Source: a virus. From it: a stretch of 35,115 nt of DNA. A program made the position numbers and the translations under genes. Position 1 is the first letter of the stretch, and each line of letters starts with the position of its first letter. Under the pieces are notes generated by a model. It made no database searches. It was not told where the DNA came from and saw only the letters and a program-made list of their open reading frames with translations. This document shows, piece after piece, positions 11,954 through 33,408 of this stretch. The DNA lies in IMG/VR virus record IMGVR_UViG_3300044998_001225, positions 1-35,115 of that record; one strand, 5' to 3'.

Positions 11954-12012
11954 GCCGAAAGGTACGCACGCAAGCCCGGCCAGACCTGAGAACCAGTAAA
12001 ACCACCAGTCCC

Positions 12013-12042
12013 ATTATAGTCCCAATTCCCTTGGTGCGACAA
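12013..12042 (-). promoter_or_regulatory. Leftward sigma-70-like promoter upstream of the major tail gene
   Basis: Read on the minus strand, TTGTCG (12042-12037) and a perfect TATAAT (12018-12013) are separated by 18 bases. Transcription would start near 12006, about 53 bases before the tail gene's ATG. The -35 box overlaps that of the opposing promoter at 12031-12059. Confidence 0.5.
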
Positions 12043-12059
12043 GGAAAAGGACGCATAAT
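12031..12059 (+). promoter_or_regulatory. Rightward promoter of the two-gene moron unit
   Basis: TTGGTG (12031-12036), a 17-base spacer and CATAAT (12054-12059) lie just ahead of the rightward gene at 12095. An A/G-rich leader carries GAGG nine bases before that ATG. Such stand-alone promoters are the hallmark of phage morons expressed from the prophage. Confidence 0.55.
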
Positions 12060-12094
12060 AAGAGTGTCGGAGAGAGCCGACGAGGAAAAAGAAA

Positions 12095-12583
12095 ATGGAA
12101 ACAAAAAGCAGCTACAACACCGACGACACTCAAGAATTCGGGATCCTGGTGCATCCGTGCACGTCCGACCCGCTCGCTCACCCCTATCTCCTGACGACCG
12201 ACGATCGCTACCAGGAGGTCCTGGTCTTTGATACCGAGGAGGAGGCTGAGGAGCACGCGGCGGACTGGTACGCGCAATGGGGCCCAGACAATCCCTATCG
12301 GCTTGCGCACAACGAGCACGCTAAGCCCGACCTGCAGGTCGTCCCGTTGTACCGCGACAACTATGGCTGCCCCTGCGTCCGCGCCTACGCGGTGATCATG
12401 GACGGGCTGGACATGGTCCAAGTCTGCTGGACGGAATCCGAGTTTCGGTCTTGGTGGGGCGAGGGCAACAAGGGGCTAGAGGTCGTGTACAGCCCGGAGC
12501 AGCTGTACGAGCTGGCCGACGGCGACGATGACGAGCAAGCGCTGAACGAGGTGGCCGATGCGGCCGGGTGGGGTGAGCGATGA
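12095..12583 (+). CDS. Acidic moron protein, unknown
   Basis: This 162-residue, strongly acidic protein (TEEEAEEHAADWYAQWG, then ELADGDDDEQALNEVADA) lies on the strand opposite to the late genes. Its start is fixed by a GAGG 9 bases upstream and a promoter at 12031-12059. It has aromatic residues and a CPCVRAY segment but no domain I recognise. Acidity could point to a DNA-mimic or inhibitor type of protein, but that is only a guess. It is followed by a DNA-binding-like gene, so the two may form one regulated unit. A 16-codon ORF (12582-12632) overlaps its stop and the next start and may couple translation. Confidence 0.75.
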   Translation: METKSSYNTDDTQEFGILVHPCTSDPLAHPYLLTTDDRYQEVLVFDTEEEAEEHAADWYAQWGPDNPYRLAHNEHAKPDLQVVPLYRDNYGCPCVRAYAVIMDGLDMVQVCWTESEFRSWWGEGNKGLEVVYSPEQLYELADGDDDEQALNEVADAAGWGER

Positions 12584-12610
12584 GCGCCCAACACATGCAG
12601 GATTGGGACA

Positions 12611-12976
12611 ATGACCGTCCTGCATCCTAAGACGGGCCTCCCCTGGGTGCTCGCCCAGGACGAGGCTGGGATCGATTTTCGCCCTGGGCCCGAGGCCCAG
12701 GGCCTGATCGTCGATGCGGCAGGGACTGACCCTTCCAAGCTCGCGCGCGAGGTCAGAGAGCGGGGGCTCGAGGTACTCGAGCACGTGCGGGACACGTGGC
12801 CGACCGTCGCCGACGAGGCTTCGAGACTGGGCGTCTCGAAGCAGAGGATCATGGAGCTCGTGGCCGAAGAGCGCTACGACGCGCTCAAGATCGGTGGGAT
12901 CCTGCGGCTCAGGCCGAAAGACAGCGGGCCGAGGCCGAAGCCGGGAAGGCCGCCCAAGCCGCGCCCGGCCTCATGA
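12611..12976 (+). CDS. Small DNA-binding protein with excisionase-like helix-turn-helix (moron)
   Basis: The protein has 121 residues. Residues ~65-100 (TVADEASRLGVSKQRIMELV, then ALKIGGILRLRP) match the pattern of MerR/excisionase-type winged helices found in 'helix-turn-helix domain 17' proteins: a recognition helix, a wing and a basic end. The C-terminus is basic and Pro-rich (RPKPGRPPKPRP), probably disordered DNA-contacting sequence. It lies 27 bases behind the acidic moron gene on the same strand and converges with the neck gene (6-base overlap). It may regulate its own unit or act in recombination directionality. No integrase is visible nearby. Confidence 0.7.
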   Translation: MTVLHPKTGLPWVLAQDEAGIDFRPGPEAQGLIVDAAGTDPSKLAREVRERGLEVLEHVRDTWPTVADEASRLGVSKQRIMELVAEERYDALKIGGILRLRPKDSGPRPKPGRPPKPRPAS

Positions 12977-13519
12977 CCGCCCCGCTTTCCTGGCCGCGTC
13001 CCTCAAAAGGCGCTGGCGGGCCCGGAACCTGCGCTCGAGCAACCCCATCGGATAGCTGGAGCGCAGGTTCCTCCAGCCCATCAATCCACGGCCCACCATC
13101 AGCCGCGTCCCCGCCGGGTGCAGGACATACCGGGCATAGCTCACGCCCGAGCCGATCGCCACGTCGTAGACCCCGGCCCCGCGCCGGACGAACCGCACCG
13201 ACCGGCGCAACCGCCCGGTCTGGCGGTTGATCGGCAACAGCGGCGCCCTCAGCCGGGCCCTCCCCCGGCCCTTCGTCCCGCGCCTCGAGACGTCCCCCGT
13301 CTTCACATAGTTCACGGCCGCCGACCGCCCGCGGCCATAGGGGTTCCCCATCTCGTCGAGCCGCTTTTGAGAAAGCCCCCCGGCCGTGTTCTCGAAAAGG
13401 TCCTCCCTGCCCGCCCTCGCGAGCTCCCGCACCCCAGCGTCCAAGTCCGCCGCTATCCGCGCAAAACGCGCTTTTTGCGCGGATAGCAGACTGGCGAAGG
13501 AGCCGTGCCGCTTCGTCAC
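12971..13519 (-). CDS. Neck protein, HK97 gp10-like (minor tail/neck)
   Basis: The protein has 182 residues. GTG 13519 overlaps the upstream stop as GTGA. A helical N-terminus is followed by a basic middle (KGRGRARLRAPLLPINRQTG) and 'LRRSVRFVRRGAGVYDVAIGSGVSYARYV', here in two halves, then 'HPAGTRLMVGRGLMGW'. The pattern 'TG.LRrSv...v.Ig..v.YAryvh.G' is that of HK97-gp10-type neck proteins. Such proteins join the portal complex to the tail. The gene carries a perfect 15-bp inverted repeat near its 5' end (13452-13487; see findings). Confidence 0.75.
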   Translation of the reverse strand: MTKRHGSFASLLSAQKARFARIAADLDAGVRELARAGREDLFENTAGGLSQKRLDEMGNPYGRGRSAAVNYVKTGDVSRRGTKGRGRARLRAPLLPINRQTGRLRRSVRFVRRGAGVYDVAIGSGVSYARYVLHPAGTRLMVGRGLMGWRNLRSSYPMGLLERRFRARQRLLRDAARKAGRS

Positions 13520-13947
13520 TGGCCCCACCGCACGAAGACCTGGCAGCGAAAGCCGCACTGGACGGCGAACGCCCCCTCGGCGACGTCGAGCTGCGGCGAC
13601 GGGTCGAACTCCGACAAAACCGGCAGCTCGGCCACACCGGCCAGAAAACCGGGCGTCTCGACCTGGGCCGCCAAGGCGGCGAACTTCGCAACCGCCTCCT
13701 CCGCCCAGTCCAGGCCCGCCGACTTCGGGAACACGCCGAAAACATCGACAAAGATCGGCCAGGAAAGGCCGTCGACCGTCTGCCAGTCGGCCTCCATGCC
13801 GCGCAGGATCAAAGCCGCGTAAGGAAGGGCCGAGACCGTCTCGGAAGGGGGCCGCCAATAGACCTCCTTCAGCCCAGGCCAGGCCTCGGAGACCGCCACC
13901 CCCAGCGCCGTCAACACCGCGTTCCGCACCGCGCCGACCTGGGGCAT
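13516..13947 (-). CDS. Tail completion / tail terminator protein
   Basis: The protein has 143 residues. ATG 13947 overlaps the upstream stop as TGATG. N-terminal helix (GAVRNAVLTALG), a central strand segment (ALPYAALILRGMEADWQ), and the end 'QCGFRCQVFVRWGQ' are in the style of phage tail completion (gp17/Tc1-like) proteins of about 130-150 residues. It lies between head-closure and gp10-like genes, the normal neck module order. It would cap the head-proximal end of the tail tube. Assignment is from gene order and size, with modest sequence support. Confidence 0.6.
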   Translation of the reverse strand: MPQVGAVRNAVLTALGVAVSEAWPGLKEVYWRPPSETVSALPYAALILRGMEADWQTVDGLSWPIFVDVFGVFPKSAGLDWAEEAVAKFAALAAQVETPGFLAGVAELPVLSEFDPSPQLDVAEGAFAVQCGFRCQVFVRWGQ

Positions 13948-14366
13948 CAGAGAGGCACCCCGCCAGGACTGCCGAGCCCGCCGGTCCCACCGCCACCGCC
14001 AGCCTGGCGGCCGCCCCCGGCGCCCGTGTCGGGGCGCCACTCGAGCCACCTCGCCGCCACCCGCACGTGCTCGGCCCCGACCGCCAGACGGTGGGCCTCG
14101 GGCGGGGCCACCGTCGTATAGACCTCCTCACCGACCATAAGCCTCGTCCCGACCTTGTCGAAAAGACCGGCGGAGCCGAGCGGGGCATAGACCGCGAACG
14201 CCCGGTCAGCCTCCACGCCGAACAGCCGGAAAGCCGCGTCCTGGGAGAGCGGCTGGACCTGGCAAGGCGTCGAACCCGCGTGCCGATAGGCCACGCCGTC
14301 GACCACCAGGTCGGCCCCCACCACAGGGGAGGGTTCGTAGACCTCGGCCACAGCGTCGAAGATCAC
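13947..14366 (-). CDS. Head closure (stopper) protein
   Basis: The protein has 139 residues. GTG 14366 overlaps the upstream stop as GTGA, which rejects a longer ORF starting at 14609. The core is a small beta-barrel-like protein (YRHAGSTPCQVQPLSQDAAF, then FAVYAPLGSAGLFDKVG and VGEEVYTTVAPPEAH), similar in layout to gp16/Hc1 head-closure proteins. The C-terminal ~25 residues are Gly-rich and low-complexity (GAGGGRQAGGGGGTGGLG), which is unusual for the family. It would close the portal channel after packaging. Confidence 0.6.
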   Translation of the reverse strand: MIFDAVAEVYEPSPVVGADLVVDGVAYRHAGSTPCQVQPLSQDAAFRLFGVEADRAFAVYAPLGSAGLFDKVGTRLMVGEEVYTTVAPPEAHRLAVGAEHVRVAARWLEWRPDTGAGGGRQAGGGGGTGGLGSPGGVPL

Positions 14367-25034: not shown

Positions 25035-25384
25035 TTCGAAGCCCTCCAGCCATGGGCGCCGAACGCCTTCTTGACGGCGGCGGCCAGCCTTTCGCCCGTC
25101 AGCGGCTCGGCGCAGTCGGCGAGGTCGGCCTCCCAGCCCGGGTAGGGACGGCCCGCCTCGACCGCCTCGGCCAGCCTCGCCTTGCCCCCGGCCGCCAGCA
25201 CCGAGGCCGCGACGATCAGCCTTCGCTCGGGCGACCGGCCGTCGGCGACCCCCCGCCCGAGGCCCGAGGCCCACGCGCGGACGGCGGCCTTCGCCTCCGG
25301 CGGCCCGCCGACGACCAGCCCGTCCGGCCCGGCCCGGACGGTCAGTCCCGCCTGGATGGCGGACGCGAGGAGGGCTGCCGTCAC
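25031..25384 (-). CDS. Small protein with TubC-like N-terminal docking domain
   Basis: The protein has 117 residues. GTG 25384 overlaps the primase-helicase stop (GTGA) and has a strong Shine-Dalgarno, GGAGGAGG, five bases upstream. The first 40 residues (MTAALLASAIQAGLTVRAGP, then DGLVVGGPPEAKAAVRAWAS) follow the 'LL..L...Gv.l...gd.L...gp......l...' pattern of the TubC N-terminal docking domain. That domain is often present in short phage proteins near replication genes. The C-terminus (LTGERLAAAVKKAFGAHGW) is helical. Probably mediates protein-protein contacts with a replication partner (inference). Confidence 0.65.
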   Translation of the reverse strand: MTAALLASAIQAGLTVRAGPDGLVVGGPPEAKAAVRAWASGLGRGVADGRSPERRLIVAASVLAAGGKARLAEAVEAGRPYPGWEADLADCAEPLTGERLAAAVKKAFGAHGWRASK

Positions 25385-28068
25385 CAGACCTCCTCCCCTG
25401 GCCCGAGGCCCTGAAAGTCAGCGCCGCGGCTAGTGTCACAGTTAGTGTCACGGTTAGTGTCACAGTTAGTGTCACGCCCTTCCGGCCCGTCTTGGCCCGT
25501 GTTTTGAACCTGAAAACCCTTTGGATCGGCCGTATAAGTGTCATTAGTGACACTAGTGACACTAAAATCCCTACCCCCCACACGTGCGCGCGCGCGTGAG
25601 CCCTCTACTTCGTTTTCTTTCTTCGCGCGTTTATATAGGAAATTAGTGTCACTAGTGTCACAGACGCTTGTTTCGGAGAGGTCTGCGTCCGCAAACTTGT
25701 ACAGATCCTGCGTGACACTAACTGTGACACTAGGTGTGACACTAAAACCGCCGTCCTTAGTGTCACAGGCGACCACCTTCAGCGCCCGCCCTTTTCGCCC
25801 CTTCGGGCCGCGCTCGAGCCGGAGCCCGTCCAGGACCTGGCCGACCATGTGGCTCATGGCGATCCCCAGGCTCCGGCGCGGGCTCTTGGCGTCCGAGAAC
25901 CTTTCGGCCCACGCCGAGAACGCCTCCATCGTGATCAGCTGGTCCCACCAGTCCTCGAGGAAGAAGTCCTCGCCGCCGGTCGCGGCGCGGACCTCGGCGA
26001 GCACCGCCGCCCTCAGTGTCCGGTCGTCGTCGTTGGCCGCCCTGAGCTCCTCGAGGTTCCCCAGCAGTCCCGGCACTCCGACCGTCCCGAGGATCCCCGA
26101 GAGCGCCCTCGCCCAGGCCCCGAACCTTGTCGGGGGCGCGTCCCCGTCCGGCGCCCCGGCGTCGAGCCAGCCTTGCACGACCGCCAGGCAGGCCGAGACG
26201 GCCTTCGCGCGGTTCTCGCCCAGCCAGGCCAGGAGGTCCGGGTGCCGAAAGCCGGTCCGTTCTTCCGGCCGCTCCGACCTCGAGTCGAGCCGGACGTAGA
26301 GCGAGCGGCTGACGAAGTCCTCCTCCAGCCGCGCGTTGTTGGCCGTCGCGACGAAGACCGTGCGGACCTCGAGCTCGTAGACCTCGTTCCCGCCAAGGAT
26401 CCGCTCCTCGACCTTCGAGCCGGTGACCATGGCCATGAGCGCCGGCGAGGAGAGCCTTCCTTTGACGTTGTCGATGAGCACGGCCGGGCGGCACGCGGCG
26501 ACCAGCGAGACGAGCGCCTTCTGCCAGTCCTCCTCCCGGCTCGGAGGGGCCTTGACGCCGACCAGGCCGCACCCTGGGTGAAGGCAGGTCTGGGCCGCGA
26601 GCGTCTTGCCCGTCCCTGGAGAGGGCGCGTCGAACACCACGAGCGGCGACGGGCCTTTGAGCCAGAACCGCAGGAACGGGGTCAGCATCAGCGCGAAGGC
26701 CCCGGCCCGGTCGGCCTCGCCCGCCCATGGAAAGTCGCCCAGCAGCTCGTCCAGCAGCCATTCCGCCGCTCTCCTGCCCCCGCCCTCCCACGTCCCGGAC
26801 GGCTCCGCGGCCAGGAAGACCCCGGAACCGGCGTCGTAACCGTTCTCGGTGACGAGCCGCCCGTCCGGAGCCAGGAACGGGCAGTGCGAGACGCCCTTCA
26901 GCGGAGGGGCGAAGGACCACTCGCCGAGCGTCAGCGTCCCCGCCGCCACGTACTTCGGCGGCTGGACCGGCCTCGTCCCTTTGGGAGAGCTGGACGTCCA
27001 GTCCGCGGCCCGGGCCAGGCGCTCGGCCATCGCCGCCTCGGTGAGCGGCCTCACCGCCCCTGCCGCGAGCTCCACGAGCCGCCCGTTCTGGGCGAACCAG
27101 CGCGGCGGGTCGTTGGCCCGGGCGAGGCACGCCAAGGCGTCGTCGAGCACGTCCCTGGCCTGCCTTCCGGCCGTCTCCACGTTCGGCAACCCCGCATCGG
27201 GCCCGTCCAGGAAGAGCACGGCCTTCGGCGCGGGCGCCGGGCCGGGGCCGAGCGCCCGCGCCGCCGCCTTGAAGTCCCCATTGTGCTCGAGCCTGGCGTA
27301 AAGCCCGAAGGCGTCGTACCGCCCCGGCGGCAAGCCGGGCCACTCCGTCGTGTGGACGTGGACGAGGCCGCCGCCGCCGAGGCCCACCGTCGCCGATACC
27401 CCCCGGGGTTTACCGGGCCGCGTATAGTAGCGGAGCCCGCCCGCTTCGCGGAAAAGCGTCCCACCGGCCAGTTCCAACAGTCGGCCGGGGTCGTTCTCGG
27501 CGTTGTAGCGGTCGCCGGGCCGACCGCCCAGGGTATCGGCGGTCTCCGGCGCCGGGAACGAGCCCGGGTCGAGCCAGGCCCCGTCCCGCGCCAGGGACGA
27601 TCCCCCCGCGCCCGGCGGGCAGGACGGCAGGTAGTACAGCCGGGCCGGGTCGGTGTGGGGCTCGGCCAGGCCGCACCCAAGGGCCTCGGTCGCCCTGGCG
27701 CACCAGTCCGGCCACTCGGAGGCCGGGACGGGCCTTGCGAGCGGGAAGACCGCCCGCCACCGCGGCGACTCCGGCGAGCTCCTCCATGTCGTGTGGAGCG
27801 CGTAGGCCAGCCCTTGCTCGTCCCACAGGTCGGCCAGGTCCTCCCAGGCGTGGCCGCCGTCGAAGTCGAGGCACAGGCAGGAGAGGCTCAGGACGGCCTT
27901 GTTGCCGCGCTTGGCCCCCGCCGGGTATTCTGTGGGGCTCCAGCACGGCCCTGTCTTCGGCCCTTCCCGGAACGAGGCCAAGGCCTCCCGCAGGTCGGCG
28001 AACGACGGCGACCAGTCTTTCGGGAAGGCGTCGCGCTCAGACTCGAACTTGCTCGCCCTCAGGCGCAA
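25381..28068 (-). CDS. Primase-polymerase / helicase (replication initiator) with origin repeats in its 3' end
   Basis: The protein has 895 residues. TTG 28068 has GGAGG six bases upstream. The N-terminal domain is AEP/primpol-like: catalytic-type DFD at 68-70 (CLCLDFDGGH), HTTWRSSPESPRWRAVFPL (92-110), and DPARLYYLPSCPPG (140-153). The C-terminal part is an ATPase/helicase: Walker A PGTGKT (484-489), Walker B AVLIDN (529-534), sensor-type VFVATANN, and arginine residues after SRSLYVRLDSR. From ~768 to 880 the sequence is low-complexity (SVTPSVTVSVT, DTNCDTNRDTNCDTS). There the DNA carries the TTAGTGTCAC repeats rather than a conserved domain. It likely opens the origin and primes synthesis. 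Confidence 0.88.
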   Translation of the reverse strand: MRLRASKFESERDAFPKDWSPSFADLREALASFREGPKTGPCWSPTEYPAGAKRGNKAVLSLSCLCLDFDGGHAWEDLADLWDEQGLAYALHTTWRSSPESPRWRAVFPLARPVPASEWPDWCARATEALGCGLAEPHTDPARLYYLPSCPPGAGGSSLARDGAWLDPGSFPAPETADTLGGRPGDRYNAENDPGRLLELAGGTLFREAGGLRYYTRPGKPRGVSATVGLGGGGLVHVHTTEWPGLPPGRYDAFGLYARLEHNGDFKAAARALGPGPAPAPKAVLFLDGPDAGLPNVETAGRQARDVLDDALACLARANDPPRWFAQNGRLVELAAGAVRPLTEAAMAERLARAADWTSSSPKGTRPVQPPKYVAAGTLTLGEWSFAPPLKGVSHCPFLAPDGRLVTENGYDAGSGVFLAAEPSGTWEGGGRRAAEWLLDELLGDFPWAGEADRAGAFALMLTPFLRFWLKGPSPLVVFDAPSPGTGKTLAAQTCLHPGCGLVGVKAPPSREEDWQKALVSLVAACRPAVLIDNVKGRLSSPALMAMVTGSKVEERILGGNEVYELEVRTVFVATANNARLEEDFVSRSLYVRLDSRSERPEERTGFRHPDLLAWLGENRAKAVSACLAVVQGWLDAGAPDGDAPPTRFGAWARALSGILGTVGVPGLLGNLEELRAANDDDRTLRAAVLAEVRAATGGEDFFLEDWWDQLITMEAFSAWAERFSDAKSPRRSLGIAMSHMVGQVLDGLRLERGPKGRKGRALKVVACDTKDGGFSVTPSVTVSVTQDLYKFADADLSETSVCDTSDTNFLYKRAKKENEVEGSRARARVGGRDFSVTSVTNDTYTADPKGFQVQNTGQDGPEGRDTNCDTNRDTNCDTSRGADFQGLGPGEEVW
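25431..25766. repeat. Array of 13 TTAGTGTCAC-type repeats: candidate iteron origin of replication
   Basis: Copies on the plus strand start at 25431, 25442, 25454 and 25466 (about 12-bp period), at 25643 and 25652, and at 25757. A degenerate copy lies near 25535. Reverse copies (GTGACACTAA/G) are at 25547, 25556, 25712, 25724 and 25736. Spacings are 12 bp or 9 bp within groups. TAGTGTCACTA is an odd-length palindrome, so tightly spaced copies form larger dyads. The array lies in the 3' end of the primase-helicase gene and flanks an alternating CG tract (25579-25598) and an A/T-rich patch (25602-25645). Lambda keeps its origin iterons inside the O gene in the same way. A regulator-binding array is the alternative. 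Confidence 0.8.
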
Positions 28069-30400: not shown

Positions 30401-30430
30401 AGTATAACGGCGGGCTGTAATTTTTGTCAA
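30401..30430 (-). promoter_or_regulatory. Leftward early promoter (PL-like)
   Basis: Consensus TTGACA (30430-30425), 18-base spacer, TATACT (30406-30401) on the minus strand. Transcription should begin at or within a base or two of the ATG at 30394. The block 30414-30433, containing the -35, is repeated in inverted orientation at the rightward promoter (33604-33622), suggesting one repressor controls both. Confidence 0.8.
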
Positions 30431-30452
30431 GACTGTGCCACAATGAATTTGA
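30424..30452 (+). promoter_or_regulatory. Possible repressor promoter, overlapping the leftward early promoter
   Basis: TTGTCA (30424-30429), 17 bases, then a weak -10 (ATTTGA, 30447-30452) four bases before the repressor ATG. The -35 hexamer occupies the same bases as that of the leftward promoter, so the two should exclude each other. A palindrome TGTGCCACA at 30434-30442 is a candidate half-operator. The weak -10 makes this tentative. Confidence 0.4.
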
Positions 30453-30456
30453 AAAA

Positions 30457-31416
30457 ATGCTACTCGTGCCGACCGGGGACATCGGACGCCGCGTGCGCCA
30501 AGTCAGGCTTTCGGTCAAGCCTGTCGCTCCGAAACAACAATGGCTCGCCGAGCAGCTCGGCGTGTCGCAGGCGGTCGTCTCGAACTGGGAGCGCGGCCGC
30601 CACGACCCGTCTCCTCACCACGTGTCTAAGATCGCGCAGGTGCTGGGCGTCGATCCCGGCTTCTTGACGGGTGGATCGACGGTGCGCGCGACGCTTGGGT
30701 CGCCGACGATCCCCGTCGGGTTTCCTATGGCCAGGATCAGGCACGCCGGGACCGTGCCGGCCGGCGACTGGGGCGACCCGCTCGCCTCCGAAGACTTCGT
30801 CGAGGTCGACGTCAGGTTCGACCACCCTCGCCGTTTCGCCGCGACGGTGGTCGGGGACTCTTGCTGGCCGGCGCTTCGGCAGGGCGACCTAACCGTCTGG
30901 CACTCAGACCCGGCCCCGCCGTACAACCTGATCGTCCTTGCCCAACGGGTGGGCGACCATGGGTGCACGGTCAAAGAGCTCGTCTGGGACCCGGGGGCCA
31001 ACCGTCCTGTGCTCGCGCCGGTGAACCCGGCCTATGGCCAGACCGATGACGGCGATGGATGGGCCGTCACAGCCAGACTAGTGGCAGTGGTGCGGCGACA
31101 AGACGGCGTCGAGCAGACTTGGTACTCGCCCGAAGGGCTCAGAGTGAAGTACCTCGCAGGGGCCGAAGCCGCGAAAGACCCCGACGGGGCGGCGTCGCTG
31201 TTGCTTCAAGCTATCGGCGATTCGTGGGACGTGAAGTACACCGAAGAGGGCAAGGCGGCGAACGAAGCGATCATCGACCACGTTGAGCTACCTTCCGGCG
31301 TCGAGGCTCATATCCTCGGCCGGCAAGTTCCGAACGACCTACCCGAAGGCGTTCTTGGAATCGAACGGAAGGCACCCGAAGACCCACTTGGAAAGTTCTA
31401 TGTCTCGCACAAGTGA
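30457..31416 (+). CDS. CI/LexA-like repressor: XRE helix-turn-helix plus S24 autoprotease, extended C-terminus
   Basis: The protein has 319 residues from ATG 30457; an upstream TTG frame (30424) would begin in the promoter. Residues ~10-70 are an XRE domain (QQWLAEQLGVSQAVVSNWER). The S24 domain has the cleavage pair Ala102-Gly103 (TVPAGDW), nucleophile Ser135 (VVGDSCWPALRQGD) and Lys173 (CTVKELVWD). The 38-residue Ser-Lys spacing is as in LexA/CI. It should therefore be cleaved during the SOS response and maintain lysogeny. Residues ~230-319 extend beyond the usual fold and have no recognised match. The next gene starts inside its end. Confidence 0.9.
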   Translation: MLLVPTGDIGRRVRQVRLSVKPVAPKQQWLAEQLGVSQAVVSNWERGRHDPSPHHVSKIAQVLGVDPGFLTGGSTVRATLGSPTIPVGFPMARIRHAGTVPAGDWGDPLASEDFVEVDVRFDHPRRFAATVVGDSCWPALRQGDLTVWHSDPAPPYNLIVLAQRVGDHGCTVKELVWDPGANRPVLAPVNPAYGQTDDGDGWAVTARLVAVVRRQDGVEQTWYSPEGLRVKYLAGAEAAKDPDGAASLLLQAIGDSWDVKYTEEGKAANEAIIDHVELPSGVEAHILGRQVPNDLPEGVLGIERKAPEDPLGKFYVSHK

Positions 31417-33048: not shown

Positions 33049-33408
33049 TTGCCGCTGTGGGCCGATTTGCGGCGCGTTCCCGCCAAACTGCTCTCTTATG
33101 CCCTGAGTCACCTCTTCCGGACGTGGCGTGCCGTCTGGCGGGGCGGCGGCGGGCCTTCTCATCGTGTCGCCATACCGAAGGGCACACTCTACGGCCAATG
33201 CGCGGGCGATCACCACGTCGTCGTTCGGCTCGCTATAGCAAGGCTCGAGTTCCATGCCAGGCCTTGGAATCCTGTGACCTGGAGGGGAGCGATCGCAGGA
33301 TGGCTCTTCCTCGACTTTCTGCCAAGGGTCGAGGAAGAGCCGCGCGTGCCGACCCCCGAGCGGGCCGCGCATGAGGTCTGTGAGACCTCGCGCCTAGCGC
33401 AGACCTGA
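33049..33408 (+). CDS. Possible small protein, uncertain coding
   Basis: This TTG-started frame of 119 codons fills the space between the cassette and a convergent small gene. The translation is plausible (LLSYALSHLFRTWRAVWRGG; DHHVVVRLAIARLEFHARPW; TWRGAIAGWLFLDFLP). However, there is no clear ribosome site, and the DNA forms strong hairpins (33302-33341 and 33373-33389). It could be a real gene, or a structured non-coding region whose frame is open by chance. Confidence 0.4.
   Translation: MPLWADLRRVPAKLLSYALSHLFRTWRAVWRGGGGPSHRVAIPKGTLYGQCAGDHHVVVRLAIARLEFHARPWNPVTWRGAIAGWLFLDFLPRVEEEPRVPTPERAAHEVCETSRLAQT
33302..33389. repeat. 14-bp perfect inverted repeat followed by a 7-bp hairpin
   Basis: GGCTCTTCCTCGAC (33302-33315) and its exact complement (33328-33341) are separated by 12 bases. 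A second stem GAGGTCT/AGACCTC with loop GTG lies at 33373-33389. They sit between convergent transcription units and could terminate from both sides or be part of an RNA. Confidence 0.7.

Follow-up and report, generated by a model that had tools for sequence, protein, structure and literature searches.

The window analyzed here, the whole 35,115-nt stretch of viral DNA in IMG/VR record IMGVR_UViG_3300044998_001225, carries a perfect palindrome with 15-nt arms (13452-13487) inside a gene for a structural protein. The question that this locus raises is whether such a palindrome reflects a function, a mutational event, or chance. The initial annotation had proposed an RNA hairpin that tunes translation, a binding site for a recombinase or another protein, or a packaging-type signal. 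We favor a mutational event, for the reasons given below.

The palindrome and its gene

The gene that holds the palindrome runs on the minus strand from a GTG at 13519 to a stop codon at 12971 and encodes an HK97-gp10-like tail-completion/Neck1 protein of 182 aa. Its earlier label as a neck gene agrees with profile matches to PF04883 (HK97-gp10_like, E=1.5e-4, better than the curated cut-off) and to phrog_5, 'tail completion or Neck1' (E=2.8e-5). The GTG start overlaps the stop codon of the upstream gene (GTGA). On the plus strand the palindrome reads GCTATCCGCGCAAAA-CGCGCT-TTTTGCGCGGATAGC, where, in the mRNA sense, the left arm (13452-13466) forms the 3' side of the hairpin, the 6-nt spacer (13467-13472) reads AGCGCG, and the right arm (13473-13487) forms the 5' side. 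Re-reading the sequence bore out the perfect repeat and spacer originally reported, with 15 of 15 positions complementary between the arms, and the distance from the start codon, first given as about 30 bases, measures 29 nt. If pairing is extended into the spacer, the arms become 18 nt with one mismatch. The palindrome runs from the third position of codon 11 to the second position of codon 23 and encodes LLSAQKARFARIA; the initial annotation was right that a peptide is encoded across the palindrome, although the one it gave, SAQKARFARIAADL, is slightly shifted. Structure prediction places a helix at residues 7-36 of the N-terminus of the neck protein, with low confidence (mean pLDDT 43).

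Three contigs of this virus are known, namely, the window and two IMG/VR contigs that are >99.9% identical. Of the latter two, only one extends over the site, and its palindrome is identical, which argues that the repeat is not an assembly error of a single record.

Chance expectation and codon usage

When the whole window was simulated with a second-order Markov model, 2 of 300 runs (0.7%) contained perfect arms of at least 15 with a loop of 3-30; with a loop of 3-20, such arms appeared in 4 of 400 codon-usage resamplings in which the proteins were kept (17 genes, ∼17 kb). None of 1000 within-gene synonymous shuffles reached 15 (longest arm, 13), and resampling of codons 4-40 of the neck gene alone gave 0 of 20,000 (longest arm, 11). 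A repeat of such length is about a 1% event per genome of the same kind, a figure uncorrected for the palindrome having been chosen by eye. The earlier statement that it is improbable by chance thus stands at these values, which are not astronomically rare. Because a feature with odds of ∼1% was found by hunting for palindromes, it is unusual, yet it is no proof of function. Among the annotated background phage records, perfect arms of at least 15 turned up only in Gordonia phage Eyre (6162-6209 and 25883-25917), and both of these repeats are intergenic by annotation; no annotated gene in these records contains such arms, while inverted repeats of 13-14 bp are found within genes.

Among the 12-codon windows of the 16 genes compared, the palindrome stretch also has the most atypical codon usage (z −5.16), ranking first of 4,699 after the trimming of two regions of doubtful reading frame and 61st when untrimmed. 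GC3 falls to 57% in codons 11-24, versus 90% elsewhere in the neck gene, and the palindrome includes the rare codons CTA (5 of 484 Leu), ATA (2 of 81 Ile), and CGT (15 of 436 Arg). This atypicality and the palindrome are not independent observations, as an A or T in one arm forces a T or A in the other, and the codons show that the sequence of the palindrome is not dictated by codon preference.

These values bear directly on the simplest alternative, that the palindrome is a rare, unselected coincidence of codons that was noticed because the whole window was scanned for palindromes. We regard this as unlikely, if still a reading to be reckoned with. It is consistent with the frequencies at which codon-resampled gene sets and Markov windows reach such a length, with the many windows that were presumably scanned, and with the finding of neither conservation nor a second copy. 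That the repeat falls where codon usage is most atypical in the genes tested speaks against it, as does the lack of intragenic arms of this length in the annotated background records.

Relatives and the origin of the palindrome

Searches for relatives with the terminase, the major capsid protein, and the neck protein, both singly and as alignments, returned the same virus and one distant neck orthologue, in IMGVR 3300005690_000055 (36% identity; 38% over residues 39-144). The orthologue in Synechococcus phage Sc-Yong805-2 is P0004 (33% identity, E=1e-22); P0003, considered for this role, was rejected as the neighboring gene. No neck homologue was found in L012, a relative with a 41% terminase. 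Neither of the two orthologous neck genes contains a comparable inverted repeat, and no pairing kept by compensatory change was seen in them, both being distant. Relatives that encode the same protein with no complementarity between the arms, the kind that the initial annotation had named as speaking against its reading, therefore exist, but only as distant ones (33% and 36%). The window protein has 46 residues ahead of a conserved GGLS, and so does the orthologue in IMGVR 3300005690_000055. MAFFT scatters gaps over the poorly conserved N-terminal part, where they nearly cancel. The equal counts point to substitution within a segment of constant length and not to insertion; the palindrome is probably a sequence substitution rather than an inserted element.

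The palindrome itself is a single-copy feature. The window holds one copy of the 36-mer, its match on the reverse strand being the palindrome itself, and within IMG/VR the palindrome is confined to this virus, searches with core patterns giving the same virus and one unrelated hairpin. A scan of 84,980 species genomes with the palindrome core gave five matches, in Clostridia, Porphyromonadaceae, Oscillospiraceae, Gemmataceae, and Pedosphaera, and the outer stems of these differ from the palindrome, so the five do not resemble members of a single repeat family. Because distant relatives encode the protein with no palindrome and searches of viral and bacterial collections gave no second copy, a local mutational product is the most likely origin. 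A regulatory, recombination, or packaging function is unsupported and is not required by the evidence.

The explanation that we prefer, to which we give about an even chance of being correct, is that the palindrome is a lineage-specific quasipalindrome whose arms were made alike by template switching and which is tolerated in the coding sequence. Quasipalindromes are known to undergo template switching in E. coli and phage T4 (PMC7202029), and in yeast the process yields multiresidue changes in coding genes (PMC8604942). The event would have started within the 5' part of the neck gene, from an inverted repeat that was shorter and imperfect. While the DNA was being replicated, the nascent strand may have folded back upon itself, whereupon the polymerase would have copied one arm into the other before returning, such that the repeat would have been perfected in one step. 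Frame and protein length could have been kept since what the palindrome encodes is a variable, probably helical segment of the N-terminus. Elongating ribosomes would then have to unwind a 15-bp hairpin in the mRNA, as judged from the computed fold.

A feature expected of a template-switch product is present, in that the arms are closely spaced (6 nt) and complementary at every position, and they are more perfect than codon usage yields in either the shuffles or the resampling. The atypical codons also fit bases that were imposed by pairing and not by codon choice. Two observations weigh on the other side. Both arms contain unusual codons, whereas the copied arm should stem from an original of normal composition, and strong hairpins seem over-represented in the neck gene, a second one lying at 13024-13071, which is not expected of plain mutation. 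For the comparison with ancestral sequence, the relatives found are at 33-36% protein identity. Like the hotspots of E. coli thyA and phage T4 rIIB, the palindrome is a short, near-perfect inverted repeat with a small spacer within a coding gene; unlike them, it points to an event in one lineage, with no ancestral imperfect form or recurrent mutation seen.

Taken alone the palindrome is of little weight and is ordinary in kind, and it serves as a caution that a single palindrome should not be taken as function. It is nevertheless a clean case, a perfect intragenic palindrome with rare codons in its coding segment and unchanged protein length. Should close relatives be found, it could help to decide, for phage genes, between mutation by template switching and selection acting on mRNA structure.

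Proposed functions and surroundings

As sense RNA the palindrome folds fully into a 15-bp hairpin, with a computed energy of −24.9 kcal/mol (z −4.9). The tuning of translation proposed in the initial annotation is therefore physically plausible as a fold and unsupported as a function. In its fuller form, this reading holds that the hairpin was selected to tune translation of the neck gene, for example by slowing ribosomes after initiation at the coupled start (GTGA). The stable fold, its place 29 nt past a start codon overlapping the stop of the gene upstream, and the rare codons at the same position are all consistent with it. However, the two orthologues lack such a palindrome, the 5' end of the Sc-Yong805-2 neck gene has a fold only moderately more stable than those of shuffled sequences (z −2.2), and the hairpin begins beyond what is generally taken as the footprint of the initiating ribosome; we consider selection for this purpose rather improbable. 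Coding-region mRNA hairpins near bacterial start codons offer a likeness, as these too are stable stem-loops shortly downstream of a start, here one that overlaps a stop, but the palindrome differs from them in its lack of conservation, and any effect on expression is putative. A search of the window against Rfam returned only a tRNA, with no described RNA family at the palindrome. An intrinsic terminator is not supported, as the palindrome is not among the terminator-like sites of 12000-14000 and has A/T tracts flanking the loop in place of a T run after a G+C-rich stem. The cyanobacterial octamer HIP1 shows no enrichment.

A protein-binding dyad or a site for site-specific recombination (an operator, or a Xer/lox-like site whose arms flank a 6-bp spacer) would share the two-fold symmetry about a 6-bp center, as known in general for such sites. 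We find this very unlikely. The palindrome lies inside a structural gene and in no other IMG/VR virus; the window offers no second site, only a single half-site with 2 mismatches; and no tyrosine or serine recombinase (PF00589, PF00239) was matched in the window, which is probably a fragment. The recombinase site suggested earlier thus found no backing, and the suggested packaging signal fared no better, the palindrome being ∼7 kb from the terminase gene and missing from relatives.

The second hairpin (13024-13071), in the 3' part of the neck gene, is imperfect, with its outer 13 bp perfectly paired, and is stronger than the palindrome in the mRNA sense (−36.1 kcal/mol, z −8.1). The heptamer GCTATCC is common to both hairpins, which hold all three of the copies in the window (1.4 expected). 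The interval 12681-13487 holds four of the ten inverted repeats whose perfect arms are at least 10 long. Two plus-strand open reading frames, 12095-12583 and 12611-12976, lie between the neck and tail-tube genes and interrupt the minus-strand late genes; the second encodes a possible helix-turn-helix, as judged by eye, with no Pfam match over the cut-off. In Sc-Yong805-2 and L027 the neck and tail-tube genes abut, and the plus-strand pair (12095-12976) looks like a moron insertion. Both hairpins are downstream of these convergent frames, and the two relatives have neither frames nor hairpins. Because the extra frames and the hairpins coincide in this lineage, one can suppose that the hairpins form a functional pair handling antisense transcription from the frames, a reading that we hold to be highly doubtful.

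Least credible of all is a small mobile palindromic element of the Rickettsia palindromic element or REP/MITE type inserted in frame, for which atypical codons and several reading frames open through the palindrome could speak, as openness in several frames is likewise found in Rickettsia palindromic elements and REP/BIME, but from which the palindrome departs in being single-copy in the window, in showing no gain in length up to GGLS over the 36% orthologue, and in having no family in other genomes. The related idea of a palindromic element of the host was rejected on the five unrelated single matches of the genome-wide scan.

Several other features of the window were noted. Outside all genes used in the analysis, an inverted repeat at 33302-33341 has perfect 14-bp arms separated by a 12-nt spacer. 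A motif of the TAGTGTCAC type recurs several times, in direct and inverted orientation and with strongly atypical codons, at 25538-25768, at the 3' end of a large open reading frame (25381-28068) that by eye is probably replication-related; these copies are possibly iterons or operators. A CI-like repressor is encoded on the plus strand at 30424-31416 (HTH_3, E=1.4e-11; Peptidase_S24 just below the cut-off), which suggests a temperate phage, although an integrase was not found in the record. On the minus strand, the open reading frame at 24354-25583 matches sigma-70 region 2 (PF04542, E=1.9e-6) and is a possible phage-encoded sigma factor.
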